In this document: positions 3,208 through 31,715 of the stretch, in pieces | Layout: each line of letters begins with the position of its first letter | Numbering within the stretch: position 1 is the stretch's first letter | Assembly: GCA_030610655.1 (NCBI GenBank) | Contig: JAUWRG010000006.1 | Coordinates: 1 to 52,287 of the forward strand | DNA from: Dehalococcoidia bacterium | Lineage (GTDB): Bacteria; Chloroflexota; Dehalococcoidia; E44-bin15 | Length of the DNA stretch: 52,287 bases | Direction: 5' to 3' | Position numbers and translations under genes: made by a program | Notes under the pieces: generated by a model | What the model was told of the DNA's origin: nothing | Database searches by the model: none | Seen by the model: only the letters and a program-made list of their open reading frames with translations

Positions 3208-3227
3208 ATGGCCGCTCCTTGTTTAGT

Positions 3228-3419
3228 CTATGCCCTTTTCTTTGATTTTAATTCGATAGCTTGCCTACCTGCGTAAGTTCCGCAGATAAGGCAAACGTGA
3301 TGAGCAAGCTTGGGACTATGACATTGAGGGCAATAATCGATAGCAGGCACAGTCACAGCGCTGTGAGAGCGTCTGTTTCCCCGACGGGACTTGGTAGTCT
3401 TCTTTTTAGGAACCGCCAT
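3228..3419 (-). CDS. rpmF: 50S ribosomal protein L32
   Basis: This 63-residue protein begins MAVPKKKTTKSRRG, the standard L32 start, and carries two zinc-binding CxxC pairs (CPQC and CLIC). A longer upstream frame exists but its extra 30 residues overlap the yceD-like gene and do not look like L32, so the ATG at 3417-3419 is chosen. It lies four bases after the upstream stop, the usual yceD-rpmF coupling. Confidence 0.95.
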   Translation of the reverse strand: MAVPKKKTTKSRRGNRRSHSAVTVPAIDYCPQCHSPKLAHHVCLICGTYAGRQAIELKSKKRA

Positions 3420-3423
3420 ATCT

Positions 3424-3894
3424 CTACTGTCCTTCTTTATCAGAAACCAGCATCGCAAGCTGAGCAAGCCTCGGGTCAATTTCTCTTGGTGGACAATCGC
3501 ACGGGCCAAGATTAAGGTTGTGACCGCACGACGGGCATAGTCCAGCGCAATCCTCGCGACAAATGGGTTTCATAGGTGTAGCAAGAAGTAGGTGCTGGCG
3601 CACCGCCTCACTAAGGTCGATCTCCTGGTTCCCATTGATAATGAAAGCACGCTCATCAGCTTGAGCTGAGTACTCTTCTTCGATCTGAAGGGTCAATGGT
3701 TGTTCGAGGGGGACGAGGCATCGACTGCAAACCGCCTTGAATGTTGTCTCGATGGTGCCTCTAACGAAGATCCCCTTATCAGTGCGGAGTAAGGTGACAT
3801 CCCCGGAGATTGGCGATTTCGCAGTCTCGCGGAACCCGTAACGCCAGGTTGCCCCTATAGGTTCCTTAACAAGCTGCGATACATCAATTATCAT
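3424..3894 (-). CDS. DUF177/YceD-family protein linked to 23S rRNA and L32
   Basis: The 156-residue protein matches the YceD/DUF177 family, implicated in large-subunit rRNA accumulation and nearly always placed before rpmF. Visible are the central CSRCL motif, the acidic EEEYSAQ stretch and a C-terminal zinc-type set CREDCAGLCPSCG followed by CDC. The stop lies just upstream of the rpmF start, which supports a two-gene unit. The exact biochemical role is not known from sequence. Confidence 0.85.
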   Translation of the reverse strand: MIIDVSQLVKEPIGATWRYGFRETAKSPISGDVTLLRTDKGIFVRGTIETTFKAVCSRCLVPLEQPLTLQIEEEYSAQADERAFIINGNQEIDLSEAVRQHLLLATPMKPICREDCAGLCPSCGHNLNLGPCDCPPREIDPRLAQLAMLVSDKEGQ

Positions 3895-3946
3895 CGGTAG
3901 CTCTTACGCAAAGATGGGTCATTATAAATACAAATGTTGCTTTCTG

Positions 3947-5098
3947 TCAAGTACGCGTGCTCGCACCTAATACCTGGCGGGCAATTGTCATCCTCTGCAT
4001 TTCTGAGGTTCCCTCATAAAGTTCGGTTATTCTCTGGTCACGATAATACCGTTCCACGGCAAAATCCTTAACATAGCCATAACCACCAAAAATCTGAACC
4101 GCCTTGTGGCAAACCCTATGAGATGCCTCACTGGCGAAGAGTTTTGCCATAGCCGATTCCTTAAGGGAGGCACGTCCTTCTTGCTGCATTAGCCAGGCAA
4201 CCCTGTAGGTCAGTAGCCGAGCGGCATCGATGTCCGTGGCCATATCAGCTATCATCCATTGAATCGCTTGCATTTGAGCGAGTTCCGTACCAAATTGCTT
4301 TCTTTCCTTAGCATAGGCAACGGCGGCATCAAAAGCTGCTTGGGCTATACCCACAGCCTGGGCAGCTATGGTGACTCGGCTGGCATCTATGGCTTCCAGC
4401 GCCACTCTAAACCCCCTTCCCTCTTCGCCTACCATATTAGTGAGGGGTATTTTACAATCCTCAAAAATCAGCTCTGTCGCTGAAGCAGGGTGCAGCCCCA
4501 TCTTTTTTTCTATCTTGCCTATAGAGAAGCCGGGAGTGCCCTTGTCCACCACAAAAGCGCTAATGCCTCGGTATCCTAGCGATTTATCCTTGGTAGCAAA
4601 GGTGGTAACAAAATCAGCTTCAGCACCGTTGCTTATGAAAATCTTAGTGCCATCGAGAACGAAGTAATCACCTTCTTCGGCGTATTTTGTTTCGAGAGCG
4701 GCAACATCACTGCCAGCCATTGCCTCAGTTAACCCAAAGGCAACCGTGGCTCCTTTAGTTACGCGAGGAATGTAGTGACTTTTTTGCTGCTCAGAACCGT
4801 GCATAGTAATGGGATACATACCCAAGCCAAGGCTGCATAGGTATGAGACACTTAAGCCAGCGGAAGCACGAGCAATCTCCTCGCAGGCTATGACAAATGC
4901 TACCTCATCCAGGGTTCCACCATATTCTTCAGGAAATCCAACGCTATACAGTCCAGCATCAGCCATCTTTTTGATAGTCTCGTGTGGGAATTCCCCGGTC
5001 TCATCCCATTCAGCAGCGTAGGGTTCGATTTCTTTGGTACAAAAATCGCGCACCATTGTTTGGAACATCTTTTGTTCTTCAGTCAGTTCGAAATCCAT
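3947..5098 (-). CDS. Acyl-CoA dehydrogenase
   Basis: A 383-residue FAD-dependent acyl-CoA dehydrogenase, oxidising acyl-CoA to 2-enoyl-CoA and passing electrons to ETF. It shows the N-terminal helical domain (FELTEEQKMFQTMVRDF), the FAD-contact block FGLTEAMAGSD, the middle beta domain, and the C-terminal YGYVKDFAVERYYRD and ITELYEGTSEMQR blocks, which include the usual catalytic Glu position. The ATG at 5098 is preferred over a start 18 codons upstream because GGGAGG stands just before it and homology begins there. Substrate chain length cannot be read from sequence. It lies 52 bases before the yceD-like gene on the same strand. Confidence 0.93.
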   Translation of the reverse strand: MDFELTEEQKMFQTMVRDFCTKEIEPYAAEWDETGEFPHETIKKMADAGLYSVGFPEEYGGTLDEVAFVIACEEIARASAGLSVSYLCSLGLGMYPITMHGSEQQKSHYIPRVTKGATVAFGLTEAMAGSDVAALETKYAEEGDYFVLDGTKIFISNGAEADFVTTFATKDKSLGYRGISAFVVDKGTPGFSIGKIEKKMGLHPASATELIFEDCKIPLTNMVGEEGRGFRVALEAIDASRVTIAAQAVGIAQAAFDAAVAYAKERKQFGTELAQMQAIQWMIADMATDIDAARLLTYRVAWLMQQEGRASLKESAMAKLFASEASHRVCHKAVQIFGGYGYVKDFAVERYYRDQRITELYEGTSEMQRMTIARQVLGASTRT

Positions 5099-5281
5099 TC
5101 TTTGAACCTCCCTTTTCGTTCTGCAACCATTGAGTTGCTTCCTAGGTGCCAAAAACTTTAGCTAATATGCTACTTCTGTCCTTCTCCTTTCTGTTCCGAA
5201 ATTGCGTGAGGAGGAACTACGGAAGACATTTTAGCAAGAATGGTGGGAAAATGTAAGCACTTGTACTCGCCGGTTCTGGTG

Positions 5282-6748
5282 ATGTCTCAGACTTCCTGTA
5301 AAAACAGATATGGCGTAAGATACCTCCAGAAGAAATAATCAGGGCCCAAGAGGCCCAGAAAGGAGGACTTATGCCATGAAGAGAATACTACCATCAAGGA
5401 GGATGAGGCAAGAGATCGAGGAAGTACTTTCTGGATGGGAGGAAGCAGGTCACCCACTGGATAACTTCGTCAGGTTGGGAGCCAGATACATGCTTCAGGT
5501 AGCTTTAGAGCAGGGGGTGGAAGAGTTCCTGGGCAGGGCTCATTACCGGCGCGGTTCCCGCAGGCAGAAGGGGTGGCGCAATGGTTATGAGCCAGGAAGG
5601 GTAAAGACCGCTGATGGGCTATTGGAGGTGGCTTTACCCCAGACGAGAGCCATAGAGGAACCTTTTCACTCACAACTAACCCAGGGTTTGCGAAAGGGCT
5701 CCGATGTCTTAGGGCAAATGGTGACTGAGATGTATGTAAGAGGGCTTTCCACCAGGGATGTAGAGAACATGTTTATCGAGACTCTTGGGCAGCGGATACT
5801 CTCGAGAAGCAGCGTGAGCAGTCCTTCTTAGAAGGACCCACCGCCTTCAGCAGGACTTCGATACCTGGAGGAGGAGGGATCTATCAGGGTTCAAGGTGCT
5901 CTACCTCTTTCTGGATGCTGTTTACCTGGCATTGCGTCAGGGGACACGTGAGAAGGAAGGAGGGCTGTGCGCCTACACCATCCTGGAGAATGGCAAGAAG
6001 GTGCTCCTGCACCTGGCTTTAGGCAGCAGAGAGTCCTACGATGCCTGGACCTGTTTCCTTCATGATATGACAGCTAGGGGACTTGAGGAGCCTCTCTTGG
6101 TAGTATCCGATAAGCATAAGGGACTGAAAAAGGCAGTTAGGGAGGTATTCCCCCATGCCCTAAAACAGCCTTGTCTAGCGCACAAGATGAGGAATATTCT
6201 CTCAAAGCTGCCCAAGAAGGCTGAGAAGGAGTTGAAGGAACTCGTGCACCAGGTCCTTCCGCAGATCGAAGATTCTTTGAAAGGACGCCTCAAGCTACGA
6301 GGAAGGTCTGAGACTGGGGCAGGGGCTTATCGCCCGTTTCAGGGATCGCTATCCCTCAGCTATGGAATGCTTGGAAGAAGATTTGGAGGAATGTCTTACC
6401 TATCTGAAATTCCCGGAGGCTCACTGGATCGAAGATTGTTTGAAAGGTGATTCGTACCAGTAATCTTCTGGCGCGGACGTTCGAAGAGGGAAGATGCAGG
6501 ACCAAGGTGATTCCTCGTTTCCCTACCGAGAGCTCTGCCCTGAGATTACTCTATGCGACTTTGATAACCGCCTCTCAAAGCTGGAGGGGTATCAGGATGA
6601 CCCCGGACATCTGGTGGGAGTTGGAGTTGCTGAGACGAGAGGTCTTTGGGGAACAGAGCCAAAAGATTGAGAAAGAGTTGGTGGCAGTGTAGAATGCTTA
6701 GCAACGGAGGTATCCAAGCCAGGAGCTTTTACAGGAGAATTGGGACAT
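5282..6748 (+). mobile_element. Decayed IS256-family insertion sequence
   Basis: The element is bounded by imperfect inverted repeats: 5282-5305 and 6725-6748 share ATGTC, CCTGTAAAA and flanking matches in opposite orientation. It contains the broken mutator-type transposase described separately. The length (~1.47 kb) is normal for IS256 relatives. No 8-9 base target duplication is evident in the flanks (CTGGTG left, TACCCA right), so the insertion is old or the flanks have changed. Confidence 0.75.
5376..6692 (+). pseudogene. IS256/mutator-type transposase, several frameshifts
   Basis: Three or more frames must be joined to rebuild one transposase. 5376-~5800 encodes the N-terminal part (RRQKGWRNGYEPGRVKT, TEMYVRGLSTRDVE). 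5896-~6290 encodes the catalytic core with FLDAVYLALRQG, VVSDKHKGLKKAVREVFP and the C-L-AHKMRN block. A third frame around 6290-6450 carries ARFRDRYPSAMECLEEDL, and 6447-6692 encodes the C-terminal NLLARTFEEGRCRTKVIPRF and WRGIRMTPD blocks. The first Asp lies in FLDAVY and the second in VSDKHKG. With these breaks and an internal stop it cannot make a full protein. Confidence 0.88.
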
Positions 6749-6908
6749 TACCCAAAGCCATCTGTTGAACATTTCACCAATTGTCTGACAGAAAACTCAT
6801 GTTGTCACTGCCAACGGGCGCCAAGCGTTATGTTATACTTACTTTTGAGGTTAGAGACGAGCAAATTATGTACCTGCACCGGAATAACATTGTCTAAATA
6901 TAAGCTGG

Positions 6909-7949
6909 GTGAGTTCTATGGAAGACCCTAGGATCAAAGAAGCGCTACTCTACGAAGAACTCGCGGATGGTAAAGTCAAATGCAATACCTGTGAAAGGCA
7001 TTGTAAAGTAGGTTTGGATGAGCTGGGATTCTGCAAAACAAGGAAAAATATAGATGGCAAACTTCACACCCTGGTCTATGGCGACCTAACCTCTCTGAGC
7101 CCCAATCCCATAGAGAAGAAGCCACTTTTCCATTTCTGGCCTGGTAGCAAAGCACTAACGACTGGGACCTGGTCTTGCAACTTCGATTGCCCTTGGTGTC
7201 AGAATGAAGACATAAGTAAACATCCAGAGAAGGTTGGGAAGGGTCGATATGTAAGCCCGGAGGATTTTGTATGGGCAGTAAAGCAATACAGTCTTCAAGG
7301 CACGTCTATTTCATTTAATGAGCCAACACTGCTGTTTGAATACTCCTTAGACGTATTTGATCTGGCAAAGCAGGAAGGCTTTTATAATACCTATATAACG
7401 AACGGTTACATGAGTACTGAAGCTCTGAAGTTATTGATAGAGCATGGACTGGATGCGATGAATATTGACATAAAGGGTGATAAAGAGGCCGTTAGGCGGT
7501 ATTGCAAGGCAGATGTTGACAAGGTTTGGAATAACGCCAAGCTGGCAAAAGAGAACAATGTTTGGATTGAAATCACAACCCTGGTCATACCAAGTGTTAA
7601 TGATGATGAGGAGTGTCTAAGGGGTATTGCCAGTAGGATTAGGGATGAGTTGGGGGAGGGCACACCGTGGCATTTATCGCGGTACTATCCTGCATATAGG
7701 TTTACCGTGCCAGCAACACCTATAAGTAGTTTAGAAGAGGCTTTTAGAATTGGGAAGGAGGAAGGCTTGCAGTATGTTTACGCTGGCAATGTGCCTGGCC
7801 ATGCCTATGAGAATACCTATTGTCCATTTTGTAATGAACTTCTAATCGAGCGCTATGTATTTGACATAACAAAATACCGGATTACTTCAGAGGGGAAATG
7901 TCCAAGCTGCAAAGAAGCGATTCCTATAATTGGTGAATTCTGGCGATAA
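6909..7949 (+). CDS. amrS: AmrS-type (AmmeMemoRadiSam system) radical SAM protein
   Basis: This 346-residue protein belongs to the radical SAM family related to pyruvate-formate-lyase activating enzymes and annotated as AmmeMemoRadiSam. The 4Fe-4S motif is C90-C94-C97 in SCNFDCPWCQN. An N-terminal Cys set (C25, C28, C32, C42) and a C-terminal pair of CPFC and CPSC motifs suggest extra metal sites. The reaction is not established for most members, and no AMMECR1 or Memo partner gene is visible here. The start is GTG at 6909 or ATG at 6918; GGGTGAG just before the ATG slightly favours 6918. A stretch near 7608-7655 is repeated in the remnant at 8230. Confidence 0.88.
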   Translation: MSSMEDPRIKEALLYEELADGKVKCNTCERHCKVGLDELGFCKTRKNIDGKLHTLVYGDLTSLSPNPIEKKPLFHFWPGSKALTTGTWSCNFDCPWCQNEDISKHPEKVGKGRYVSPEDFVWAVKQYSLQGTSISFNEPTLLFEYSLDVFDLAKQEGFYNTYITNGYMSTEALKLLIEHGLDAMNIDIKGDKEAVRRYCKADVDKVWNNAKLAKENNVWIEITTLVIPSVNDDEECLRGIASRIRDELGEGTPWHLSRYYPAYRFTVPATPISSLEEAFRIGKEEGLQYVYAGNVPGHAYENTYCPFCNELLIERYVFDITKYRITSEGKCPSCKEAIPIIGEFWR

Positions 7950-7981
7950 CAAGTATGTGCCGTAGTACATAAATCATTCAA

Positions 7982-8152
7982 TCCGAAAATATATTTATTC
8001 CGTTCGCCCCGAGCCTGGGCCGTATGACGGCTCCGAACAAAGTATCGTCCGATTTATCGGACTCTCGCAAAGCGGAGGAGTCCGTAAGACGGACCGACCT
8101 GTCGGCCTCGGAGGGCCGTTCATGGTTCGACAAGCTCACCACGAACGGTATC
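7982..8152 (+). repeat. Intergenic repeat element, copy 1 (inverted relative to 51532-51655)
   Basis: The 280 bases between the AmrS gene and the next frame contain no gene. From about 7982 the sequence (CGAAAATATATTTATTCCG, then GTTCGCC) matches the reverse complement of 51655 downwards. The far end (GGTTCGACAAG and CTCACCACGAACGG) matches the other end of that copy. The centre differs: here it contains the 39-base hairpin at 8046-8084 that recurs at 47361. This looks like a dispersed non-coding element with conserved ends and variable middle. Confidence 0.65.
8046..8084 (+). repeat. 39-base hairpin repeat, copy 1
   Basis: This 39-base segment, with arms around CGGACTC and GAGTCCG, recurs at 47361-47399 with a single mismatch. 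It is nested inside the larger repeat at 7982-8152. Confidence 0.8.
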
Positions 8153-8229
8153 TAGCACATGCTATTCTCATGATTTATTGATGGGTAAACGCCCGTGGTA
8201 GTTTACTCTTTGTTATATTATTGAATTAA

Positions 8230-8538
8230 ATGGCTGGAAAAGTTTGCAAATGGTATGAAGTTTGCCCCACGAAAAGATTCTATGAGGACGGCAAACTGGA
8301 AGGGAGGTGGGTTGAGGAGTGCCTGAGGGGTATTGCCAGCAGAATGAGAGATGAATTGGAGCAGAGGGGCGCCACATTAGCTACAGAAATTCCCTTCATC
8401 TTCGAACCCGCAGTTAGGACATTTTACCTGTATCACTCCTCCATATGTTCTAGCTTGTCGATGTCTGTAATCAACCATCTGAGCATATCATATTCATCAA
8501 GTTTGGTATCTTTGTTGCCGACATCTTTTCGAATTTGA
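8230..8538 (+). pseudogene. Chimeric remnant: small Cys-containing protein N-terminus joined to an AmrS-like segment
   Basis: The open frame starts MAGKVCKWYEVCPTKRFYEDGKLEGRW in two contiguous parts, resembling the start of a small conserved protein with a CKWYxVCPxKRFYE signature. At residue ~29 it switches abruptly to EECLRGIASRMRDEL, which nearly repeats residues of the AmrS-type protein encoded at 7608-7655. The next residues (ATEIPFIFE) may correspond to an AmrS C-terminus. From about 8433 the frame runs antisense through the 3' end of the gene on the other strand and means nothing. It is best read as a recombination scar. Confidence 0.55.
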
Positions 8539-8939
8539 AGGAGGAGTTTACCCCATAGTTTCATGTACGTTACTCCCCTCTGCTCCGTATTTTCGTTTGC
8601 ATCAAATTTGGAAGCATACACCCAACATGCATTGTGTGCTTGAACTACGTTATCGGACCCGAATAAAACAAGGTTTAATCTGTTCTTTTGGAATTTGGCC
8701 AAGTCCTTCATTATCTCTTCAACCGCGTTAGATGGACCTTCTTTGCGGTTTATGTTGGCCAACACACTAATAAACGGTAATAGAATCTTACTGTAAGTTT
8801 TCCTTCGTTCATCGTTGAGCTTTTGCTGTATGGCGCGTGATTCCTCAAACTTAGATCTAACAAACCAACCAACCACTGAACCGATTCCGGCTACAAGCAA
8901 AAGTAGTAAAGGTACTAAGATGTCCTGAAACCAGTCCAT
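8433..8939 (-). CDS. Hypothetical membrane-anchored protein
   Basis: A 168-residue protein with one N-terminal membrane segment (ILVPLLLLLVAGIGSVVGWFV, residues ~7-27 with short flanks) and a charged, helical remainder facing one side. I do not recognise the family. It sits on the same strand downstream of the restriction-modification gene and the 74-residue gene, 84 bases after the latter. Proteins with this layout occur in accessory regions, but no function can be assigned. Confidence 0.55.
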   Translation of the reverse strand: MDWFQDILVPLLLLLVAGIGSVVGWFVRSKFEESRAIQQKLNDERRKTYSKILLPFISVLANINRKEGPSNAVEEIMKDLAKFQKNRLNLVLFGSDNVVQAHNACWVYASKFDANENTEQRGVTYMKLWGKLLLQIRKDVGNKDTKLDEYDMLRWLITDIDKLEHMEE

Positions 8940-9023
8940 ATTGCTTCCCTCACTCTATTGAATTCTCTGGAATCAGCTCGCCCATCTCTGCCATGAGCCG
9001 TATGATTTCCCTAAGAACGTCAG

Positions 9024-9248
9024 TTATAAAACAACACCTGCATCAGCTAGTTGGTCAGCTATACGTAGATTGTTAGCTACGATTACGTCTATGGTTTTTC
9101 TGGAAAGAAGGAGATAAAGAGCCATAGTTTGTTCACTAGCAGACATCGTAGTCTTACCTTGTGCTACAAGCTGAAGCTCCTCCAAGATTTCGGTATCGCT
9201 AGCCTGAACTGCTTTTGTTAGCCCTTCCCGGTTTAAACCAATGTACAC
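9024..9248 (-). CDS. Hypothetical 74-residue protein next to the R-M gene
   Basis: A small, helix-rich acidic protein (TEILEELQLVAQGKTTMSA in the middle) ending in ADQLADAGVVL. The start ATG is preceded by AAGGAGGATGAAG. It lies 39 bases downstream of the restriction-modification gene on the same strand, so it is probably co-transcribed. The family is unknown to me. Confidence 0.5.
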   Translation of the reverse strand: MYIGLNREGLTKAVQASDTEILEELQLVAQGKTTMSASEQTMALYLLLSRKTIDVIVANNLRIADQLADAGVVL

Positions 9249-9287
9249 TTCATCCTCCTTTAGCCAATTACTATTCGCTTCACGCCT

Positions 9288-12200
9288 CTAATTCAGCGGC
9301 CAGCCCGGAATCAGGGTGTCTATCTCCTCCATCAGGCGGATGGTCTCCTTGAGCGCCACGATCACCTTCTGGTAGTGGGTGAGATCGTCATAGCTTAGAG
9401 CCCTGCCCTTGCGGTCCTTGAGCCACTTGTGGCAGACATGGTAACCGCCGATGTGGAAGTGCCATACCTCCTGCGGTACGCCCTCAAAATACTGCGTGTT
9501 GTTGATGTCCACCCGCTGGTTATTCTCGTCGTAGCTCACCTTGTCCACGGTATTGGAGCCGGCCACGGGATACCTGGTGATGAGGTTATTAAGTAGAGGG
9601 GACTCCATGAGGTGCAGGGATACCAGTTCAGCGCCCTTTTTCGCCAGCGCTTTGAAAAGCTCCCGATCCGAAGTGAGAGGCAGGCGCGGGAAGTCTATCT
9701 TGAGGAACTCGGTATATCGGCTGCGGTATGTGGGCGAGTGAAAGATAGCATAGGCATAGTTGAAGACATCCTCTGGGCCAAAGGTCTCCATAAGGTCACC
9801 CTTGCCATCCATTACAAACTTCAGTTCCAGCTTATCAGAGGCGGTTTTGATGAACTCCGGTTTCAGGTTAGGGCGGCGGTGTACTTCCTCAAACCGCATC
9901 TCACCTTCAGCAGGGTAGAGGTAAAGCGGAAAAGTCACCTGCGAGACATGATGGCTTGTTAGTACATTCATGTCATTTAACGTGTCGCAAACCAATACAT
10001 GCTGAAAGGTGTCCCCGACTACCTGGCGCATTGTACATAGCGAGAGGTTATCTTTCATCATATGCCACATAACGAACTTGCTTGCGCCGCCTCTACCAAT
10101 TTCAATAAGATTAGGTTGGTATAGCAACCATCTTCTATCGAAGGGACGATACAGATACTCGGTAATTTCCTGGCGCCATTCTTCATTTCTTATCTTTTGT
10201 CTTTCCCGACTGGTGTTCCAGTAGGGGCCCTCGTTAAGGCTAAACCTTACGTTTATCTCATCGTCACTTAGAGAAGTATCAGCCAATAGCTCTATTCGAC
10301 GTGCGAGAGCGTTCTTGTCAGAGTCAACTAGCAAATCGTCTCGGTTTGTCTTGATACCACTTGCCCAGAACTTGCCCCTGTCCTTTTGGCTATCGCCAGT
10401 GCCGAACATATTCGCCAGACTCCAGCATTTGCTGAACTCCCATTTGAACTCCAACTTTTTGGGCACAAAAAAGAAATAAGGGGTAGCCTCTGGCTCCAAA
10501 TTTTGCCACTCAGTTGTACTAATGTCGTTCAGGGAAAGGAAAAGGTACTTTTCATCCCTGCGACCCCATAGGTCAGCATACCTAACGCACTTTGACCTAT
10601 CACCGGCATCGCTTTTGACAAAGATGGCTATTGCAACGCCCTGTCGTATGTCGAATACATTTTCGTCCTTGATGTTCTCAGGGGATTTTTCTCCTCGCCT
10701 CGAACTGCCATGAAGGTTGAGGATGTAGATTTCAGAAAAGCTTTCAAGCAGACATTCACGCATTCGGCGATGGGTCAGCCCGTCTAAATATGAGTTGTTC
10801 GTGATAAACCCGAGGATTCCATAGTCAGTCTGCTCAATGCGCCACTGGGCGAAGCGTATAAACTTGATGTAGTCGTCATCTATGTTAAGCTTCCTCTCAT
10901 GTAAGCCCTGCTTGTAATCCTCTAGGAGCGCATCAATCCACTCACCACGATTAAGGGAGCTTACAGAATACGGCGGATTTCCCAGCACCACCATTATCGG
11001 CTCGTCTTTCTTTACCCGGGCGGCGGCGTTGGCCTCCTCCGTTATCCAGGCGGCAAAGAGGGTCTCGGAGCGTTTTATGGCTTCCTCAAGGGTGTTGGTG
11101 AGGTAGATCCCCAGTCGTTGCTCCTTTTCAAATTGATAACCTGTTTCCTTTAGAAGTAGCCCTAGCTTTAAGTGTGCCATAGCGTAGGGAGCCATCAGCA
11201 GCTCGAAGCCAAAGATGCGGGGCAGGAGCTTGTCTGCCACGTACTCATTCCACAGGCCCTGCTGCCCCTGGTTTACTATGGACTGGTGAATCTCGTTAAT
11301 CACCATGTACAGAAAGGTGGCCGTGCCGGTGGCTGGGTCGAGGATTAGCGTCTTCTCATCGGCAAGCCCCTGCGGCTTGCCAAAGCTTGTCTTCAGGATG
11401 TGGTCAATCGAGCGCACGATGTAGGACACGACCGGCTCCGGCGTGTAGTAGACGCCGCGCATCTGGCGGACTTGGGGATCGTACTCTTTGAGGAACGTTT
11501 CGTAGAAATGCACCACAGGGTCTTCCTTCGCCGTCCGCTTGCCAAAGTCCTGTAGAATAGATGACATGTCTGCCTGGCCTAGTAGTTGGGCAAGATCGTC
11601 CACCAGCCAAACAATACGGTCATCAAGTTCTGGTCCCGCGATGTCGTGATAGAACAGCTTTTGCAGGAAGGGGTTGGTATTCGGTACAAGGTCACGGGCG
11701 CTCTGCCTGGTGAAGGGCGCTGGCCCATTATCGCTGCATCTAGCAGCAAAAAGGCCATAAGCCACCGTCTGCGCGTACATATCAGCGAACTCTGGTACGG
11801 ACAGGTTCGGGATAAGTGTATCGCAAAATGCCTTATGCAGATTGCGGAGTGATGGTGACGCAAGCTCCTTCTTAAAAGCGGTAACAACAACATCGCGGAT
11901 CATATGAGCGAGGCGGGCCATGCGCTCAGCAAGCTCTTTGGGCGTGCCCACCGGCTCGGCAGTATGGGCGAGGAAGTCGGCGAGAAGTCTATCAAGTTTC
12001 TCAATGCCGTCCTTGTCCCGCCTAATCTTTCCCTCTCTCGTGAGCGTGCCGAGACGCGCCTTGTCGCGGAGTTCCCCATCCGTGTACCAGCGGAACTCTA
12101 GGTAATCAGTGAGTACTAAGTTGGTTAGGGAGCCACGGTAGCGTCGTAATTGCTCGGAACGCTCCGCTTGATCCAGGTTCTCACCCACGTCCTTAGCTTC

Positions 12201-24294: not shown

Positions 24295-25929
24295 TCAGCA
24301 AACCCCACACTTGTGGCATTCGGCCGGTGGGCAGGGTGGGGTCTCTTCGCCCAGGCGCGCCTGCTCAAGCTCGGACTCAAGATAGTCCTTATTAACCCCT
24401 GAATCGATGTTCGACCAGGGCAGCTTCTCGTTAAAGGGGATCTCCCTGTTGACATAATATTCTGCATCAAGCGAGCACTCCTCCATTGCTCGACGCCATG
24501 AAGAAAGTGTTGTTCCTTCCATTTTAGCCAGCACCTGGGCGAGCCTGGCATCGCCTTTTGAGAGGACTCCTTGTATAACCATCCAATTTACACTTTCCGA
24601 GGCAAGCTTAATGCCCATTGGCTTAAGGCTATTCTTAAGTAGAGATAGGCGGTGTGCCAGGATTTCGGCGCTGGTCATGGGAAGCCATTGAAAGGGGGTG
24701 CCCGCCTTGGGTACAAATGGCTCCACAGTCAGAGTGATCCGAGTCCCAGCTCGTTTGTCGTCAATACGTCCTTTCAAGGCAAGGGTTAGCTTGATGATGT
24801 CGTCGATATCATCATCGGTCTCTGTGGGCAGGCCAATCATGAAATAGAGCTTGAGATGTTTGAGACGGTACTCGGCGACCTTGTCTATTGCCTCGATGAT
24901 GTCACTCTCCGTTACGCCCTTGTTAATGATTTTGCGTAATCTCTCTGAGCCTGCCTCAGGGGCTAGAGAGATGGTTTGTGTGCCACTCTCTATTAACCCC
25001 CTGAGGGACACTCGCGACAGGGGACGAATCCTCAGTGAACTGACGGACATCTCCGCCCCCATGTGTTGCAACCTGGTCACCAGCTCGTCTATGTCAGGGT
25101 GATCAAAGGGTGAAGCCCCCAACAGACCGATTCTTTTTTCATGTTTCAGGCCGATCTCAGCTTGGTCCAGTAGATAATCTAAAGAACGATAGCGAAAGGG
25201 GCGAAAGAGATAGCCTGCAAGGCAGAAGCGACAGCCCCATCTGCAGCCACGAGCGACCTCTATGAGATACATCCCGCCAAGCTCCGTCTCCGGGGTGAGA
25301 ATGACCGAGGTGGTGGCAAAATCATTGATGTCTTGCACCCACTGCCGCGAGATGGTCTTGCCATTATGAAGGCTGGGCACATAAATCCCGGGAAGAGAGG
25401 AAAGTGCCTGCAGCAGCGCATCCTTTCTCCCTTCAATTCCTTTGCTGATAACCTCAACCACCGCTGGCAAGATAGCCTCTCCCTCTCCAATGGCGAAGCA
25501 GTCGAAGAAGGGAGAAAGGGGTTCCGGGTTAGCGGTGATGCAAGGCCCGCCGGCAATGACTATGGGATGGGAATCGTTGCGGTCAGCGGCAAATAGGGGG
25601 ATGCCGCTCGATTTTAAAATGTTGACTACGTTGAAGTAATCCAGCTCATAGGTGATGGAGAAGGCGAGAACGGCGAAGTCGCTGAGGGGGCGCTGTGATT
25701 CAATAGTCAGAGGCTCTCTTGCTTTTTCATCCCAGAAGGCACGCTCACAGACTATGTTATCGTAGCTATTAAAGAGGGCGTAGATCGTTTGAAAGCCAAG
25801 GTTGGACATGCCCAAATAATAGGTATTAGGGTAAATCAGGGCTATGGGGATTCTGCCACCCCAATCCTTGGAGATAGTGACTCTCTCCTGTGAAAGCCTT
25901 CGCCTTGCCTTTTTGTTCCACGCCGTCAT
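24295..25929 (-). CDS. TIGR03960-type B12-binding-domain radical SAM protein
   Basis: A 544-residue protein with an N-terminal cobalamin-binding-like region (IALIYPNTYYLGMSNLGFQ) and a radical SAM core with C229-C233-C236 in RGCRWGCRFC. The KLYFMIGLPTE block follows. A cysteine-rich C-terminal end (CPPAECHKCGVC) may bind metal. In many genomes a related frame (TIGR03936) and rRNA genes are nearby; not here. The reaction is unknown. The ATG overlaps the upstream stop (TAATG). Confidence 0.88.
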   Translation of the reverse strand: MTAWNKKARRRLSQERVTISKDWGGRIPIALIYPNTYYLGMSNLGFQTIYALFNSYDNIVCERAFWDEKAREPLTIESQRPLSDFAVLAFSITYELDYFNVVNILKSSGIPLFAADRNDSHPIVIAGGPCITANPEPLSPFFDCFAIGEGEAILPAVVEVISKGIEGRKDALLQALSSLPGIYVPSLHNGKTISRQWVQDINDFATTSVILTPETELGGMYLIEVARGCRWGCRFCLAGYLFRPFRYRSLDYLLDQAEIGLKHEKRIGLLGASPFDHPDIDELVTRLQHMGAEMSVSSLRIRPLSRVSLRGLIESGTQTISLAPEAGSERLRKIINKGVTESDIIEAIDKVAEYRLKHLKLYFMIGLPTETDDDIDDIIKLTLALKGRIDDKRAGTRITLTVEPFVPKAGTPFQWLPMTSAEILAHRLSLLKNSLKPMGIKLASESVNWMVIQGVLSKGDARLAQVLAKMEGTTLSSWRRAMEECSLDAEYYVNREIPFNEKLPWSNIDSGVNKDYLESELEQARLGEETPPCPPAECHKCGVC

Positions 25930-26153
25930 TACCTTCCTATCTTCTCATTGCCTACCAAGGTGATATCAATAGACCGCCCGCAGTTGGGACATGTTATCGT
26001 TATGTTGACTGGTTGTCTCATTATCCTCTCAGCGATAGCAGTAATCATAGTGTCAAGAGCGTCCAAGCGCTGGTCCAGGAGGTCAAGACGCCCCTGCACC
26101 TGTTCCAAGCTAGGCTCCTTTTCCTTAGTCTTGGGTTTCATTTTCTGTAGCAA
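25929..26153 (-). CDS. Small zinc-ribbon-like protein with coiled coil
   Basis: A 74-residue protein with a basic, charged N-terminus, a heptad-rich helix (LEQVQGRLDLLDQRLDALD) and a C-terminal TCPNCGRSIDITLVG segment with one CxxC. A single CxxC could bind zinc only as a dimer, which the coiled coil might provide. Family unknown. It is translationally coupled to the radical SAM gene. Confidence 0.6.
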   Translation of the reverse strand: MLQKMKPKTKEKEPSLEQVQGRLDLLDQRLDALDTMITAIAERIMRQPVNITITCPNCGRSIDITLVGNEKIGR

Positions 26154-26171
26154 GTCGTCCCTCCTCTATTT

Positions 26172-26426
26172 TTAGACCCAAAGTAGTACTACGCCCAGGA
26201 CTATCAAAGCGACTCCAATGGCGACGGAAACCCAACCCCCTACTCTTAGCTCGCTAGGTAGGATGAAGTCTGGCCAGTAGCCCAGGAAGTTCCTCAATTC
26301 CTCGCGCCTCGAAAGGACATCGCCATAGCCTTTCTGTTTGTGCCTCGCCCAGAGCATAATAATTAAACCTAGGAAAGCAAAAAGACCTCCAATGCCCATT
26401 ATTATGTAGCTGTCAAGATTTGTCAT
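26172..26426 (-). CDS. Small membrane protein with two predicted helices
   Basis: An 84-residue protein with two hydrophobic segments: YIIMGIGGLFAFLGLIIMLW near residues 7-26 and VGGWVSVAIGVALIVLGVVL near 62-81. A charged loop (RHKQKGYGDVLSRREEL) lies between. No family is recognised. It lies 16 bases downstream of nrdJ and 18 bases upstream of the zinc-ribbon gene. Confidence 0.6.
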   Translation of the reverse strand: MTNLDSYIIMGIGGLFAFLGLIIMLWARHKQKGYGDVLSRREELRNFLGYWPDFILPSELRVGGWVSVAIGVALIVLGVVLLWV

Positions 26427-26442: not shown

Positions 26443-28980
26443 TTAACTGCACTTTGTATAGCCGCAGGCGGGGCAGATGTGACACCCCTCCTGATATACC
26501 AGCATGCCGCCGCATTCGGGGCACTGCCCCCAAATATTCATCACATGACCATCTCCGCCAGGGTTGTTTGCTGTGTCCTCGCTCTTGACATACTTCTCCA
26601 GTACACTGCCAATGGCGTCGGGACAGGATAGTATGGAATGACCCTCTTCCCAAGCGATGGAGGGGCAACGGATACCTCGTAGGTGCTTCACCACTGACTC
26701 TATACTCACCCCAGATCGAAGCGCCAGGGAGATAAGCCTGCAGATAGCCTCAAGCTGCGCTGAGGCGCAGCCTCCCGCTTTGCCCAGGGTGGAGAACACC
26801 TCACAAACCCCATCCGCATCGGAGTTTACCGTTACATAGATGGAGCCGCAGCCAGTGGACACCCTCTCGGTAACCCCGGTGGTGACCTTAGCTCGCCTCC
26901 TCGGGGCCCGTGCTTCGACCCTTTCCTCATCATCCGCTGCGATGCTTAGCACCTGCTTATCCTTGCTCCGATCTCTATAGATGGTGATCCCTTTGCAGCC
27001 CCAATCGTAGGCAAGCATATATGCCCGCGCCACGTCCTCTATGGTTGCGTCATGGGGGAAATTGATAGTTTTGGAGACGGCGTTGTTGGTAGAACTCTGA
27101 AAGGCGGCCTGCATTTTGATATGCCATTCAGGGCTGATGTCATGGGCGGTGGCGTAGATCTTCTTGGCTTTGTCAGGGATACCGTCCATATCCTGTATGC
27201 TCCCCCGCTTGGCTATTTCCTCCATAAGCTCAGCAGAATAAAATCCTTCCCGCTTTGCCACTTCCTCAAAATGGGGGTTCACCTCGATGAAGCTATCACC
27301 GTCTAAAATATTGTGTCTATAACTTAGTGCGAAGAGGGGCTCGATCCCACTGGAGCAACCGGCGATGATACTCAGGGTGCCTGTGGGGGCGATGGTTGTC
27401 CTGGTGGCGTTTCTAACCCCAGGCTCGCCATGTTTATCGTAAACGCTGTCCTTGAAGGCGGGGAATACACCCCTTTCATTAGCCAGCTTCACTGAAGCTT
27501 CAGTAGCGATTCTTTGAATGAAGCGCATGACATCCTCTGCGATCTGGAGTGCCTCCTCTGAATCGTAGGGTATACCTAACTGAAACAACAAATCAGCAAA
27601 GCCCATGATTCCAAGTCCGATCTTCCTGGTCAGCCTGGTCGCCTCCTTTATCTCGGGCAGGGGGAATTTGTTCATGTCGATTACATTGTCTAGGAACCTG
27701 ACTGCCAGTATCACCGTCTTTTCTAGCTTTGGGTAGTCAATCTCAGTTTCACCATTCTTATCTGATACCATCCTTGACAGATTAATGGATCCCAGATTGC
27801 ATGATTCGTAGGGGAGAAGGGGTTGCTCCCCGCAAGGGTTGGTGCTCTCAATATCCCCGAGATTTGGAGTGGGGTTGTATTTGTTTATGCGGTCTAGAAA
27901 AACGAGGCCTGGATCGCCGGTGCGCCATGCCTGGTCCACAATCTTGTCGAAGATCTCCTTGGCATTGAGCCTGCCGACTACCTCTTTATTACGAGGGTTT
28001 ATCAGGTCATATTCGGCGCCTGCCGTGACTGCCCTCATAAAATCGTCGTTTGCTGCCACCGAGAGATTGAAGTTAGTGAGGTTGTCACCTTTCTCTTTTG
28101 CGGTGATGAACTTCAGAATATCGGGGTGATTGACGTTCAAGATAGCCATGTTGGCACCGCGGCGGGTGCCTCCCTGCTTGATCACATCGGTGGCGGTGTC
28201 AAAAGCTCTCATGAAGGAGACAGGTCCGCTGGCCACCCCACCTGTGGAGCCAACCATATCGCCCTCCGGCCTTATCTTGGAGAAGGAGAAGCCGGTGCCA
28301 CCACCGCTTTTGTGGATAAGGGCGGTGTATTTTATCGTATTGAAGATAGATTCCATAGAATCATCGATGGGGAGGACGAAGCAGGCGGAGAGCTGCTGAA
28401 GCTCCCGGCCGGCGTTCATCAGGGTGGGCGAGTTGGGCAGGAATTCGAGGTTCGCCATTAAGTGGTAGAATTCCTCTTCCCAGTATTCCGCGTCGCCTTG
28501 TCTGTTGTCTATTCGTTCAGCATCGGCGATGTTTTGGGCCACACGGCGAAACATCTCCTCAGATGTTTCGCCCTGACCCTTATCGTCCTTCATGAGATAT
28601 CTCTTCTCCAGAACGGCTAATGCGGTTGAGCTGAATTTGATAGGTTCGTTTTTTGTAAGGGTTGGTTCCTTTGATGCTTCTTCGCGCCGTTGTTTTCTTT
28701 TAGTTGGCAGGGTAGGCTGCGTTGCAATCTCCATTTGGCTCCCTTCATCTATGATCTGCTTTAATATCTCTTGAATGGCATGAGGTGTCACATGTGACTC
28801 AGGTACAGCGCTCTCCATGCCGGGAAGCGGAAGGTAGGTTTGTTCCAGGCGCTGGATCGCGTCGCTTGTGAGCAATTCCATCCGCTCTCGGTCAGATATG
28901 CCGATAGACTCGCAGTAGTGGAAAACCTGACGTGCAATCCTACTGCGCAGGAGATGCTCCGATCTGCTTTTCTCGCTCAA
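26443..28980 (-). CDS. nrdJ: Adenosylcobalamin-dependent (class II) ribonucleotide reductase
   Basis: An 845-residue enzyme that makes deoxynucleotides and needs B12 rather than oxygen. The catalytic core shows LPNSPTLMNAGRELQQLSAC with redox Cys200, NPCGEQ at 381-386 with the thiyl Cys383 and Glu385, and Cys394 in ESCNLGSINL. The TSCPD-type domain (GKAGGCASAQLEAI) is followed by a zinc-like tail CPECG...CPACGYTKCS that re-reduces the active site in relatives. An N-terminal ~110-residue helical segment precedes the core. The start is TTG with a weak ribosome site, six bases after the immA-like gene. Expression probably depends in part on the NrdR-box promoter before nrdR. Confidence 0.95.
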   Translation of the reverse strand: MSEKSRSEHLLRSRIARQVFHYCESIGISDRERMELLTSDAIQRLEQTYLPLPGMESAVPESHVTPHAIQEILKQIIDEGSQMEIATQPTLPTKRKQRREEASKEPTLTKNEPIKFSSTALAVLEKRYLMKDDKGQGETSEEMFRRVAQNIADAERIDNRQGDAEYWEEEFYHLMANLEFLPNSPTLMNAGRELQQLSACFVLPIDDSMESIFNTIKYTALIHKSGGGTGFSFSKIRPEGDMVGSTGGVASGPVSFMRAFDTATDVIKQGGTRRGANMAILNVNHPDILKFITAKEKGDNLTNFNLSVAANDDFMRAVTAGAEYDLINPRNKEVVGRLNAKEIFDKIVDQAWRTGDPGLVFLDRINKYNPTPNLGDIESTNPCGEQPLLPYESCNLGSINLSRMVSDKNGETEIDYPKLEKTVILAVRFLDNVIDMNKFPLPEIKEATRLTRKIGLGIMGFADLLFQLGIPYDSEEALQIAEDVMRFIQRIATEASVKLANERGVFPAFKDSVYDKHGEPGVRNATRTTIAPTGTLSIIAGCSSGIEPLFALSYRHNILDGDSFIEVNPHFEEVAKREGFYSAELMEEIAKRGSIQDMDGIPDKAKKIYATAHDISPEWHIKMQAAFQSSTNNAVSKTINFPHDATIEDVARAYMLAYDWGCKGITIYRDRSKDKQVLSIAADDEERVEARAPRRRAKVTTGVTERVSTGCGSIYVTVNSDADGVCEVFSTLGKAGGCASAQLEAICRLISLALRSGVSIESVVKHLRGIRCPSIAWEEGHSILSCPDAIGSVLEKYVKSEDTANNPGGDGHVMNIWGQCPECGGMLVYQEGCHICPACGYTKCS

Positions 28981-28986
28981 TTTCCA

Positions 28987-29817
28987 TTACCTACCTGGAA
29001 AGACTAGAGAGATAACATATCTTGTTTTGCCACGGCCGAAGCCCTTGGATTCCATCGCGCAACGCTTCTTAATGCTACCAATCTCAAAAGACTTAAAGGA
29101 CTTGACAGCACTATCAGTCTGGTAGGCTTTAAACAGTGCAGAAGGATCTCTAACATATATGAGTTTACCCATATGCTTAGCTATAAACCCTTTTGATCTG
29201 GTTTTTTGCCAGGGTTTCCATTTAATGGCTATACATGGTTCTGGGCTGACTTCAGCAATACGAATTGCAGTAGCATGAATAGAAACCTTAAACTCCTCAG
29301 CCAATCGTTCAATAGAACTAACAGAGACACCGAAGTATTCCAAATATCTCTTAAAAATATGATGAGGCATTAGAAGTTCTGCTGCTGCGATTTGGCACAA
29401 GCGTTCCTTACTATTGCCAATAACTCTTGACTCATCGCATCTTAACTCTTCATTATTGAAACGTGGTACTCTTTCAAGCTCATGCAAGAAAGTATGACCA
29501 ATTTCATGAGCACAAGAGTAGTTTTGTCTGGTTGCTGGGCTGTTAGCGTTTACCTTTATGATGTAGCCATCTTTGCGTCTGATAAGAAGCGCGTCTACTT
29601 CGCCGAGGTCAGTTTTCACGATTTCCTTGATGCACTGTAAGGGAGCGAGTTCTTCAGCTAGAAAAGGCGGTTCCTCTCGCCCCCTCTGTTTGACCAATTC
29701 ATCCACTAGCTCCCTAGAGCGTCTAATCATAAAATTGGTGACGTCTTCCGAAGTCCGAGGCAATGGGGAGACCTGGCTAATTGTGCTATCACTGGATAAC
29801 CGGTTTGTGTTCATCAA
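28987..29817 (-). CDS. ImmA/IrrE-family metallopeptidase
   Basis: A 276-residue protein of the ImmA/IrrE (COG2856) group, zinc proteases that cut XRE-type repressors and so switch on mobile elements or stress genes. The zinc motif HEIGHTFLHE has His104, Glu105 and His108. A following helical segment AAAELLMPHHIF is typical of the family. The ~100 C-terminal residues are a less familiar sensor-like region. Its ATG overlaps the stop of the XRE gene (ATGA), the classic regulator-protease pair. It is the last gene of the cassette between nrdR and nrdJ. Confidence 0.88.
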   Translation of the reverse strand: MMNTNRLSSDSTISQVSPLPRTSEDVTNFMIRRSRELVDELVKQRGREEPPFLAEELAPLQCIKEIVKTDLGEVDALLIRRKDGYIIKVNANSPATRQNYSCAHEIGHTFLHELERVPRFNNEELRCDESRVIGNSKERLCQIAAAELLMPHHIFKRYLEYFGVSVSSIERLAEEFKVSIHATAIRIAEVSPEPCIAIKWKPWQKTRSKGFIAKHMGKLIYVRDPSALFKAYQTDSAVKSFKSFEIGSIKKRCAMESKGFGRGKTRYVISLVFPGR

Positions 29818-30143
29818 TCTCTCCCATTATCAAATTCCATTTCAAGTTGCTCAGGTGTCGGTGGATAAAACAGTGATTCAAGGTCCGCATCTGTTAGATC
29901 CTCACAGTGCACATGAAAAGGTTTCCCTCCTCTGGCTTCATGCAAATTGAGAGCTTTAGCAAGGTTTACCATCATAGTATGGCTTAACCACAGAGGTTGA
30001 CCTTCCAGCAGTTGTGTAAGGTAGCCTAATCTGAGTTTCGCTCTCTTGGCAAGCTCTTCTTGGGAAAGTCCCTGTTTTTCCATTTCTTGACGAACCCGAC
30101 GTCCAATCAACTCCTTCGTGTTCTGGGTAATAACTCTACGCAC
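29814..30143 (-). CDS. XRE-family transcriptional regulator
   Basis: A 109-residue protein with a helix-turn-helix at about 13-68: RQEMEKQGLSQEELAKRAKL followed by YLTQLLEGQ. The C-terminal tail DLTDADLESLFYPPTPEQL resembles that of the next regulator upstream. The start is GTG with TAGGAG six bases before it. It is the likely substrate or partner of the coupled ImmA/IrrE protease. Confidence 0.85.
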   Translation of the reverse strand: MRRVITQNTKELIGRRVRQEMEKQGLSQEELAKRAKLRLGYLTQLLEGQPLWLSHTMMVNLAKALNLHEARGGKPFHVHCEDLTDADLESLFYPPTPEQLEMEFDNGRD

Positions 30144-30219
30144 TTTAGACTCCTACTTCTAGGGCATTGTCAACCTTCTGCTGCTCTTTGCTGACCTAAA
30201 TGCAACTTTATTCTTCGCT

Positions 30220-30237
30220 ACACTAGGTAAGTAGTGT
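30220..30237. promoter_or_regulatory. Candidate operator palindrome between the two XRE-like genes
   Basis: ACACTA and TAGTGT form a perfect 6-base inverted repeat with a 6-base centre in the 111-base gap between the two regulator genes. XRE repressors usually bind such palindromes. No convincing promoter hexamers were found next to it. Confidence 0.35.
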
Positions 30238-30254
30238 GTATTCATCAACCGCTC

Positions 30255-30575
30255 CTAATCACCCCAGAAGTTGCCCTGACGGGGAGTCAGGGGCTTGAGG
30301 CAATTCTTGAGCTCGTCGTCTGTTAGTATCTCATATCCTTCTTCAAAAAACCTACCCCTAGCGCTTGGGGGATTAAGAGCATAAACAAAATCGAGCAGCG
30401 CGTGCTTTATTGGCTCAGGCTCGCCTCTTATTCCTCTTTCAAGGCGATCTTTCGGGTATTTCGTTTGTTGAGCAAGTTCCTTTGGAGTAACCCCTTTATA
30501 GTTCATCCAACAGCGAATCCCTTGCCAGATTTCTCTACGTTCTTCCATGTCACTCTGGCTAGGTATTTTTCTCAT
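30255..30575 (-). CDS. XRE-like DNA-binding protein, second copy
   Basis: A 106-residue protein with a helix-turn-helix-like segment (NYKGVTPKELAQQTKYPKDRL) and a C-terminal EILTDDELKNCLKPLTPRQ tail that parallels the tail of the 29814-30143 regulator. This suggests an old duplication. Its ATG overlaps the stop of the nuclease gene (ATGA), so nuclease and regulator are made together. Confidence 0.65.
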   Translation of the reverse strand: MRKIPSQSDMEERREIWQGIRCWMNYKGVTPKELAQQTKYPKDRLERGIRGEPEPIKHALLDFVYALNPPSARGRFFEEGYEILTDDELKNCLKPLTPRQGNFWGD

Positions 30576-30907
30576 TCCTTTCTCCTATTTGGTATTGTTA
30601 GGTTTCTACCAGTCCTTGCTGATGCAAAGCTAATCCTATTCCTTGCTACTTTGGCAATAACTGGTGTGGATCCCGTTTTGGTCGCTGTGGTCTTTAGCCT
30701 ATCCAGTTCCACCGCATTGGGAATTTTAGGTTGCCCCTTGCGAGTTGATTTTACCTGTATATGCCATTTCGTCCCAGTGGGGAATACACAAGTCACATCT
30801 GCTGGGCCTCTACTACCTGGACTTAGTGTGCATCTCGCTTGATGCCCCCTCAGCTTTCGAGCTACAAGTTTTTCTTTTTTGCGCCCATAATCGTACTGAC
30901 TGGTCAT
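30572..30907 (-). CDS. PD-(D/E)XK nuclease-like protein (Mrr/Hjc type)
   Basis: A 111-residue basic protein. An N-terminal helix with Glu12 (YGRKKEKLVARKL) is followed by SRGPADVTCVF (Asp37) and WHIQVKSTR (Gln51, Lys53). This D-QxK arrangement fits the Mrr-type variant of the PD-(D/E)XK fold, and the length fits Holliday-junction-resolvase-like proteins. It is the first cassette gene, 27 bases downstream of nrdR. Its DNA substrate is unknown. Confidence 0.65.
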   Translation of the reverse strand: MTSQYDYGRKKEKLVARKLRGHQARCTLSPGSRGPADVTCVFPTGTKWHIQVKSTRKGQPKIPNAVELDRLKTTATKTGSTPVIAKVARNRISFASARTGRNLTIPNRRKE

Positions 30908-30934
30908 ACTCTGTACCTCCTCCCAACGCTATTC

Positions 30935-31477
30935 TTATTTACTCCTTTGAAGAGTATTACTAGGAGCTGCACTATCCAATTCTCCGTTCGAAAAGAGGGG
31001 GAGTTGAGTTGTGTCGTTGTTGGAGAAGCTGAGTCTGGCATAGTAGGCATCGGCCTCCTGCTTCATCTCCTCAATATCGGCGAAGGCGCGGTATACGCTA
31101 GCGAAGCGGATGTAGGCGATACCGTCTAGCTGGCGCAATCGCTCCATTACCATGTCTCCAATAGTAGCGCTCTCCACTTCCCCTTTACCTGACTTATGAA
31201 GATAAGTCTCGATGCCATCTACCATCTGCTCAACGGTTTCTTGGGATACAGAGCGCTTGGTGCAGGCCTTGCGAATCCCGGAGATCAGTTTCTCACGGCT
31301 GAACTCTTCTCGCCGACCATCTTTCTTGGTTACCAGCAGCGCCGTCCTCTGAGGTCGCTCATAGGTGGTGAAGCGGGAGCCACACTCGAAGCACTCGCGG
31401 CGACGGCGGACGGCCTCATTCACATCGCGTGAGTCAATAACCTTGGAATCGTCATGACCACAATAGGGGCATCTCAT
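30935..31477 (-). CDS. nrdR: Transcriptional repressor NrdR
   Basis: A 180-residue repressor of ribonucleotide reductase genes. The N-terminal zinc ribbon (C3, C6, C29, C32) is followed by the ATP-cone (LLVTKKDGRREEFSREKLISGI) that senses ATP/dATP. Two NrdR boxes overlie its own promoter immediately upstream, which implies autoregulation. The target nrdJ lies downstream on the same strand, separated by a four-gene cassette. Confidence 0.96.
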   Translation of the reverse strand: MRCPYCGHDDSKVIDSRDVNEAVRRRRECFECGSRFTTYERPQRTALLVTKKDGRREEFSREKLISGIRKACTKRSVSQETVEQMVDGIETYLHKSGKGEVESATIGDMVMERLRQLDGIAYIRFASVYRAFADIEEMKQEADAYYARLSFSNNDTTQLPLFSNGELDSAAPSNTLQRSK

Positions 31478-31485
31478 AACTCAAA

Positions 31486-31532
31486 ACCCTATATATAGCG
31501 CAAGGCTATAATACTACCACAATATATAGTTA
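31486..31532 (-). promoter_or_regulatory. Tandem NrdR boxes upstream of nrdR
   Basis: Two 16-base sites, 31486-31501 (core CTATATATAG) and 31517-31532 (core CAATATATAG), both fit the NrdR-box core CWATATATWG. Each matches about 13 of 16 positions of the known consensus. Their equivalent positions are 31 bases apart, about three helical turns, the usual spacing for cooperative NrdR binding. Confidence 0.85.
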
Positions 31533-31539
31533 TTGTCAA
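31511..31539 (-). promoter_or_regulatory. Sigma-70-type promoter of nrdR
   Basis: On the minus strand TTGACA (31539-31534) and TAGTAT (31516-31511) are separated by exactly 17 bases. The upstream NrdR box fills the spacer and the second box lies just past the predicted start of transcription. This is a textbook repression layout. Confidence 0.75.
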
Positions 31540-31679
31540 TAGTTTTACTACAGCATGTTAATGTTCTATGATTTCGTCATCGTCTGCCTGTCCTGAGAAA
31601 ACGGCACCCTATAAAGTGTAGTAGGTGCTGATATTGGACAGCAAAGAGAAGAAGAAGTTGGCATGCAAGAAAGCACAAG

Positions 31680-31715
31680 AGGGTCGCAGGCTGATGTCTA
31701 TAAGACAGCGACCCT
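31680..31715 (-). terminator. Candidate terminator after ftsZ
   Basis: Minus-strand transcription past ftsZ meets a hairpin: 8-base outer arms (AGGGTCGC/GCGACCCT, 31708-31715 and 31680-31687), and inner arms TGTCT/AGACA with a 7-base bulge. The downstream stretch CTTGTGCTTTCTT is only moderately T-rich. It would separate the ftsZ transcript from the nrdR promoter. Confidence 0.45.

Follow-up and report, generated by a model that had tools for sequence, protein, structure and literature searches.

A small HTH-like protein (hereafter X) and a metalloprotease of the IrrE type (ImmA) adjoin nrdJ, the gene of the B12-dependent class II ribonucleotide reductase (RNR), in 20 distinct loci of the Dehalococcoidia. 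This recurrence suggests that a stress switch, so far undescribed, acts on the supply of DNA precursors. One of these loci lies in the window, that is, the whole stretch of 52,287 nucleotides analyzed here, from an anaerobic Chloroflexota bacterium. By analogy with the IrrE/DdrO and CapP/CapH systems, the X-ImmA pair may be a proteolytic switch wired into the RNR operon, a reading to which we give an even chance. The more specific proposal, that class II RNR operons of Dehalococcoidia carry, beside NrdR, a dedicated second regulator consisting of an IrrE-like protease and a small substrate and triggered by ssDNA, is put forward tentatively, its chances being somewhat below even.

The gene order in the window is nrdR–nuc–X1–X2–ImmA–nrdJ, all on the minus strand, in an ftsA-ftsZ-nrdR neighborhood and with intergenic distances, from nrdR to nrdJ, of 27, -4, 111, -1, and 6 bases (negative values being overlaps). 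The first gene, nrdR (30935-31477), encodes the Zn-ribbon/ATP-cone repressor (Pfam; NCBIfam NrdR TIGR00244, 4.7e-54), and the last, nrdJ (26443-28980), a class II RNR of 845 aa (NCBIfam PRK08665, 1200 bits). No RNR other than the latter was detected in the genome, which is 99.8% complete (a single PF02867 match); a search for the class III NRDD found none. Between them are nuc (30572-30907; 111 aa), with an Hjc-like PD-(D/E)XK nuclease domain, X1 (30255-30575; 106 aa), a homolog of the ImmA-adjacent X of relatives, its paralog X2 (29814-30143; 109 aa), and ImmA (28987-29814/29817), an ImmA/IrrE-family metalloprotease of the nrdJ-linked subfamily with the motif HEIGH (Pfam Peptidase_M78, 1.5e-16). 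ImmA comprises 276 aa from a TTG (29817) or 275 aa from an ATG (29814), the latter being probably its start. An earlier note on this DNA had described four genes with internal ATGA overlaps; the genes are real and nuc and X1 do overlap in an ATGA, but between X2 and ImmA the overlap is TGATG (1 base if ImmA begins at the ATG). It had overlooked the decayed 3' end of a second nuc (30162-30242, minus strand; the C-terminal ~27 codons) between X1 and X2, just upstream of the latter. Counting this copy, the layout reads [nuc-X1][remnant nuc-X2]-ImmA.

The same note had placed the cassette under NrdR control, and the cis elements agree with this. A consensus scan located a promoter upstream of nrdR (31539-31511, minus strand; TTGACA-17-TAGTAT, with TG preceding the second hexamer), the sole good minus-strand sigma-70-like promoter within 28900-31700. 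Overlapping it is a pair of NrdR-box-like sites (31517-31532 and 31486-31501, minus strand), which start exactly 31 bp apart and have the top two scores (21/24) across the 52 kb. The locus thereby has the paired boxes about 31 bp apart over a promoter, and the joint presence of nrdR and an RNR gene, that characterize NrdR-controlled RNR operons, from which it differs by the additional X-ImmA pair inside the operon. Nearly all relatives show this paired-box/promoter layout ahead of nrdR, whether they carry the module or not, and the spacings from nrdR through X and ImmA to nrdJ are operon-like across loci. Neither a same-strand promoter nor a terminator was recovered inside nrdR–nrdJ by the consensus scan; a separate promoter for the cassette was thus rejected and, as the note had supposed, no strong promoter seems to isolate it from its neighbors. 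Where X-ImmA parts nrdJ from nrdR, no NrdR-box pair was found before nrdJ. Given that the box pair overlaps the only strand-matched promoter, the module apparently sits within an NrdR-controlled transcript, as far as sequence signals can tell. A further conserved operator, specific to the cassette, was also considered upstream of nrdR in the module-bearing genomes and rejected, as nothing beyond the NrdR boxes stands out in an alignment inspected by eye and an inverted-repeat scan. Single NrdR-box-like sites within the nrdJ coding sequence, in the window (27301-27316) and in several relatives (e.g., L003 at 2341 and L008 at 2407), probably reflect codon conservation.

The order nrdR–X–ImmA–nrdJ occurs in 14 of the 20 loci and (nrdR–)nrdJ–X–ImmA in the other 6. 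When 393 genomes of the class were searched with the protease, all 16 matches with E<1e-50 adjoined nrdJ; by chance, in a genome of 2 Mb, a random gene would be as near to nrdJ in about 0.3% of cases. Of 22 weaker matches, a few of the weakest of which had no locus to check, only three had nrdJ nearby (G667, G517, and G643). X is out of reach in one nrdJ-linked locus (L094), where the contig breaks off too early. Within the family of the window, two further genomes (G012 and G004) have nrdR-X-ImmA-nrdJ and one (G002) has nrdR-nrdJ-X-ImmA; in the genus-mate G001 and most family members, nrdR directly adjoins nrdJ. Additional Dehalococcoidia MAGs outside the family carry the module in one or the other order. 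Being patchy (about 5% of the class genomes, and 4 of 14 in the family), the module is therefore dispensable. Two of the divergent loci have a composition of their own. In L102 (G643, 4325-9000), nrdJ is followed on the same strand by a large DNA methyltransferase-like ORF, the gene of a protein of 161 aa, and a relative of ImmA. In L087 (G517, 2139-10000), nrdR is followed by several small ORFs, an ImmA relative, and then a pair of successive nrdJ-like ORFs (30% and 55% to the nrdJ of the window).

In the protease tree, for which ten unlinked M78 proteins were also used, the 20 distinct linked loci group together (91/92). Nine of the unlinked proteins lie outside this group, and the tenth, together with three divergent linked proteases, is placed outside it on long branches. 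The distances of protease and nrdJ are correlated (Mantel r=0.77), and much of their history was therefore shared. That the family inherited the module vertically and only once was nevertheless rejected for G002. Its protease, encoded downstream of nrdJ, falls outside the clade formed by the family's other three, which are encoded upstream (the AU test rejects one clade for the whole family at p=0.0016), while the nrdJ tree supports the family at 100/100. Thus, within this family the module reached nrdJ at least twice, on opposite sides, and this convergent arrival is the main argument for nrdJ as a functional partner and not a mere landing site.

ImmA belongs to the M78 family and, by its predicted fold, to the three-domain IrrE type. 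The HExxH motif and a third, downstream Glu that define M78 metalloproteases are present, and the four residues (H104, E105, H108, and E147) are invariant in 14 relatives. The AF2 model has a protease, an HTH, and a C-terminal GAF-like domain, as in IrrE/PprI, which it matches over nearly its full length in Foldseek (~260 columns with 3DTE/8SLN, E 2.9e-11); the matches include the PprI-ssDNA complex 8SLN and CapP 7T5T. This agrees with the earlier suggestion of a repressor-like protein next to a protease of the corresponding family. PprI is activated by ssDNA via R85, R207, and R267 (PMC10904395). In a profile alignment, with chain numbering offset by two, R85 corresponds to the invariant R97, itself a generic M78 position, and R267 to the nearly invariant R266, and R207 has no conserved basic counterpart. 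Sensing of ssDNA by ImmA is plausible; release of zinc, which activates IrrE in Deinococcus (PMC7907104), is an alternative trigger.

X is the fastest-evolving part of the module, and about half of the relatives have no recognizable HTH in it. Both X1 and X2 had been taken for XRE regulators. This holds for X2, which has an XRE-type HTH (Pfam HTH_3, 5e-7) and its closest relative in the X of G435 (L095; 28%, 1e-11). X1 alone has no Pfam HTH match, and owes the label HTH-like solely to its homology with X2 (30% identity, 4e-7; hhalign 95%). With the X of L040, L042, L043, and L047, X1 is 38-46% identical, and a second class of X (L025, L026, L041, L044, L045, L084, and L093) is linked to it by a weak profile match; scanned singly, the X proteins of L025 and L041 gave no Pfam HTH. 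Pfam, NCBIfam, and PHROGs offered no convincing name for X1 or nuc. As an individual feature, the X of G002 (L029, 3148-3705) ends in a Zn-ribbon-like CxxC..CxxC tail that is absent from other X proteins. The fast evolution of X is as expected for a cleaved regulator, but equally for an antitoxin.

Among known systems, the IrrE/PprI-DdrO pair of Deinococcus shares with X-ImmA the near full-length three-domain M78 fold, the HExxH, an HTH-type partner, and targets in DNA metabolism. In the loci described here, in contrast, X has ~105 aa, is encoded beside the protease, and often shows no clear HTH, its cleavage being putative; moreover, DdrO controls a dispersed repair regulon, whereas this pair is tied to one RNR operon. 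CapH-CapP resembles it in that the gene of a small HTH protein precedes that of an M78 protease, beside a presumably controlled operon, and CapP, one of the structural matches of ImmA, is activated by ssDNA. However, the neighbor in the 20 loci is the housekeeping nrdJ and not CBASS, Bub, or other immune operons. The PADLOC capP match (2.5e-31) was rejected as a sign of membership, since unlinked M78 controls score about equally, and the capH profile weakly matched 1 of 15 X proteins. Because the capP profile is unspecific and no immune operon is present, X-ImmA should not be filed as CapH-CapP. ImmR-ImmA of ICEBs1 and the Xre-COG2856 pairs likewise combine an XRE-type protein with an M78 protease, but here integrative-element and phage genes are absent, the pair lies between nrdR and nrdJ instead of in an integrative element, and the longer protease with its C-terminal domain, the vertical signal, and the nrdJ linkage set it apart.

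Our working model is that the core, in scattered Dehalococcoidia, would be a two-gene proteolytic switch (an HTH-like X and an IrrE/PprI-like metalloprotease) within the nrdR-nrdJ operon. Single-stranded DNA, or freed zinc, would signal DNA damage or stalled replication and activate the protease, which would then cleave X. As X would normally restrain the output of the nrdR-nrdJ operon or its product, its cleavage would raise the sole RNR and supply dNTPs for repair. The switch would run parallel to NrdR, the sensor of nucleotide levels, and, with switch and target on one transcript, the loop would adjust itself. Into the slot of this genome, a gene for an Hjc-like nuclease would also have been inserted and then duplicated together with X, one copy later decaying. 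PprI/DdrO is an ssDNA-activated derepression switch (PMC10904395), and CapP/CapH has likewise been described as one. Against the switch stand the fast evolution of X, often without an HTH, the lack of an extra operator, and the patchiness of the module. A literature search of partial coverage found no paper linking RNR or nrdJ to an ImmA/IrrE protease, and discussions of RNR control in bacteria mostly center on NrdR, allostery, and SOS or stress factors. If the model is true, a protease-substrate pair ties damage sensing directly to DNA-precursor supply, and core metabolism joins repair regulons and immune operons among the targets of IrrE/CapP-type switches.

Alternatively, X-ImmA could be a toxin-antitoxin-like or defense module of the Xre-COG2856 kind that persists in an essential operon, nrdJ being its shelter and not its target. 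Such pairs have been proposed to be TA-like (PMC2701414), and the patchy distribution with its many absences, the fast-evolving X, and the X1/X2 duplication would suit such a module. Yet any essential gene would give shelter, while nrdJ is the only place of this subfamily, which arrived there independently on either side; in addition, the Xre-COG2856 literature casts the protease mainly as a regulator. Phage and viral collections hold only generic M78 proteins, none near nrdJ, and no linked copy, on which grounds a phage origin of the linked protease was rejected; the hint of a mobile element in the earlier note misfits the core for the same reason. Overall, we consider this explanation unlikely.

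A little less probable still is an action at the protein level, in which X holds ImmA and stress leads the protease to degrade NrdR, NrdJ, or an inhibitor, or in which the RNR complex is bound by X. The missing HTH in many X proteins would be accounted for, as would nrdR-X gaps of about 25-86 bp, which leave little space for a separate operator. Furthermore, NrdR has a Zn ribbon and NrdJ a Zn-ribbon-like Cys-rich tail, and IrrE of Deinococcus is activated by zinc (PMC7907104). On the other side, the HTH is clear in X2 and several relatives, the known relatives of the protease cleave HTH repressors, and NrdR or NrdJ as a substrate is only putative.

The nuclease gene does not seem to belong to this switch core. 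The suspicion that the 111-residue protein has a PD-(D/E)XK nuclease fold was borne out by fold prediction: by its AF2 model (pLDDT 81; order alpha-beta-beta-beta-alpha-beta), nuc is a PD-(D/E)XK protein with a restriction-endonuclease-like core, nearest to the archaeal Holliday junction resolvase Hjc, its best Foldseek match (E 5e-4, TM 0.64-0.71 for the top matches). The core carries the acidic and Lys residues of this fold in the motif E12..D37..Q51-V-K53, in which E, D, Q, and K are invariant in four homologs. Fold, E..D..(E/Q)xK layout, and an SPGSRG-like loop are shared with Hjc, but nuc has QVK instead of EVK, is ~20% identical, and is bacterial, patchy, and partly decayed.

Remains of nuc were found in two places. 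The remnant at 30162-30242 was recovered by tblastn (8e-4 against the whole window; 6e-4 with the G014 remnant), and its local DNA score was 46 versus a maximum of 35 in 500 shuffles. Given this second nuc 3' end before X2, a nuc-X unit was probably duplicated in tandem, with one nuc since decayed. The other remnant, core-deleted and without the catalytic middle, lies exactly between nrdR and nrdJ in G014 (L106, about 1501-1694), from a sister family (f2) of the same order; in the nrdR–nrdJ slot of relatives, it is the only form of nuc that recurs. No nuc was found in phages or viral contigs, and its phage origin was thus rejected. Other homologs lie near phage-like genes (G011) or behind a DNA methyltransferase (G006), or are part of a larger fusion (G515). 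The last (L105, G515 C4, 565-1809) has a ~310-residue N-terminal part next to the nuc domain, and its neighbor ORF looks, by eye, like a HipA-type kinase. Taken together, nuc is best seen as an old, decaying passenger, an unstable extra to the core.

Homing endonucleases and inteins are frequent in RNR loci, and nuc alone could be a free-standing mobile endonuclease-like element that invaded the nrdR-nrdJ junction, unrelated to X-ImmA. Its location in an intergenic slot by an RNR gene, the remnants in two places, and the patchy homologs are compatible with this, but the fold is Hjc-like and not of a known homing class, and the other homologs are away from nrdJ, so we regard it as improbable. 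Least probable is the view of the earlier note, a single mobile or stress cassette of four genes with a nuclease that rises as dNTPs fall: contiguity, the nuc/X1 ATGA coupling, the NrdR-controlled position, and the repeated nuc-X association seen in the f2 slot remnant and the remnant before X2 speak for it, but X-ImmA adjoins nrdJ in 19 other loci without intact nuc, nuc was degraded twice, and its other homologs have the different settings given above (a DNA methyltransferase, phage-like genes, a fusion). A mobile four-gene cassette unique to this genome was rejected on account of the same 19 loci, the search for the four-gene order in relatives having returned X-ImmA but not intact nuc, and a rise of the nuclease with falling dNTPs could at most concern this one genome. 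On the other side of the operon, 3' of nrdJ (24295-26426), almost all family members, like the window, keep a radical SAM gene and two tiny unnamed ORFs, of 84 and 74 aa.
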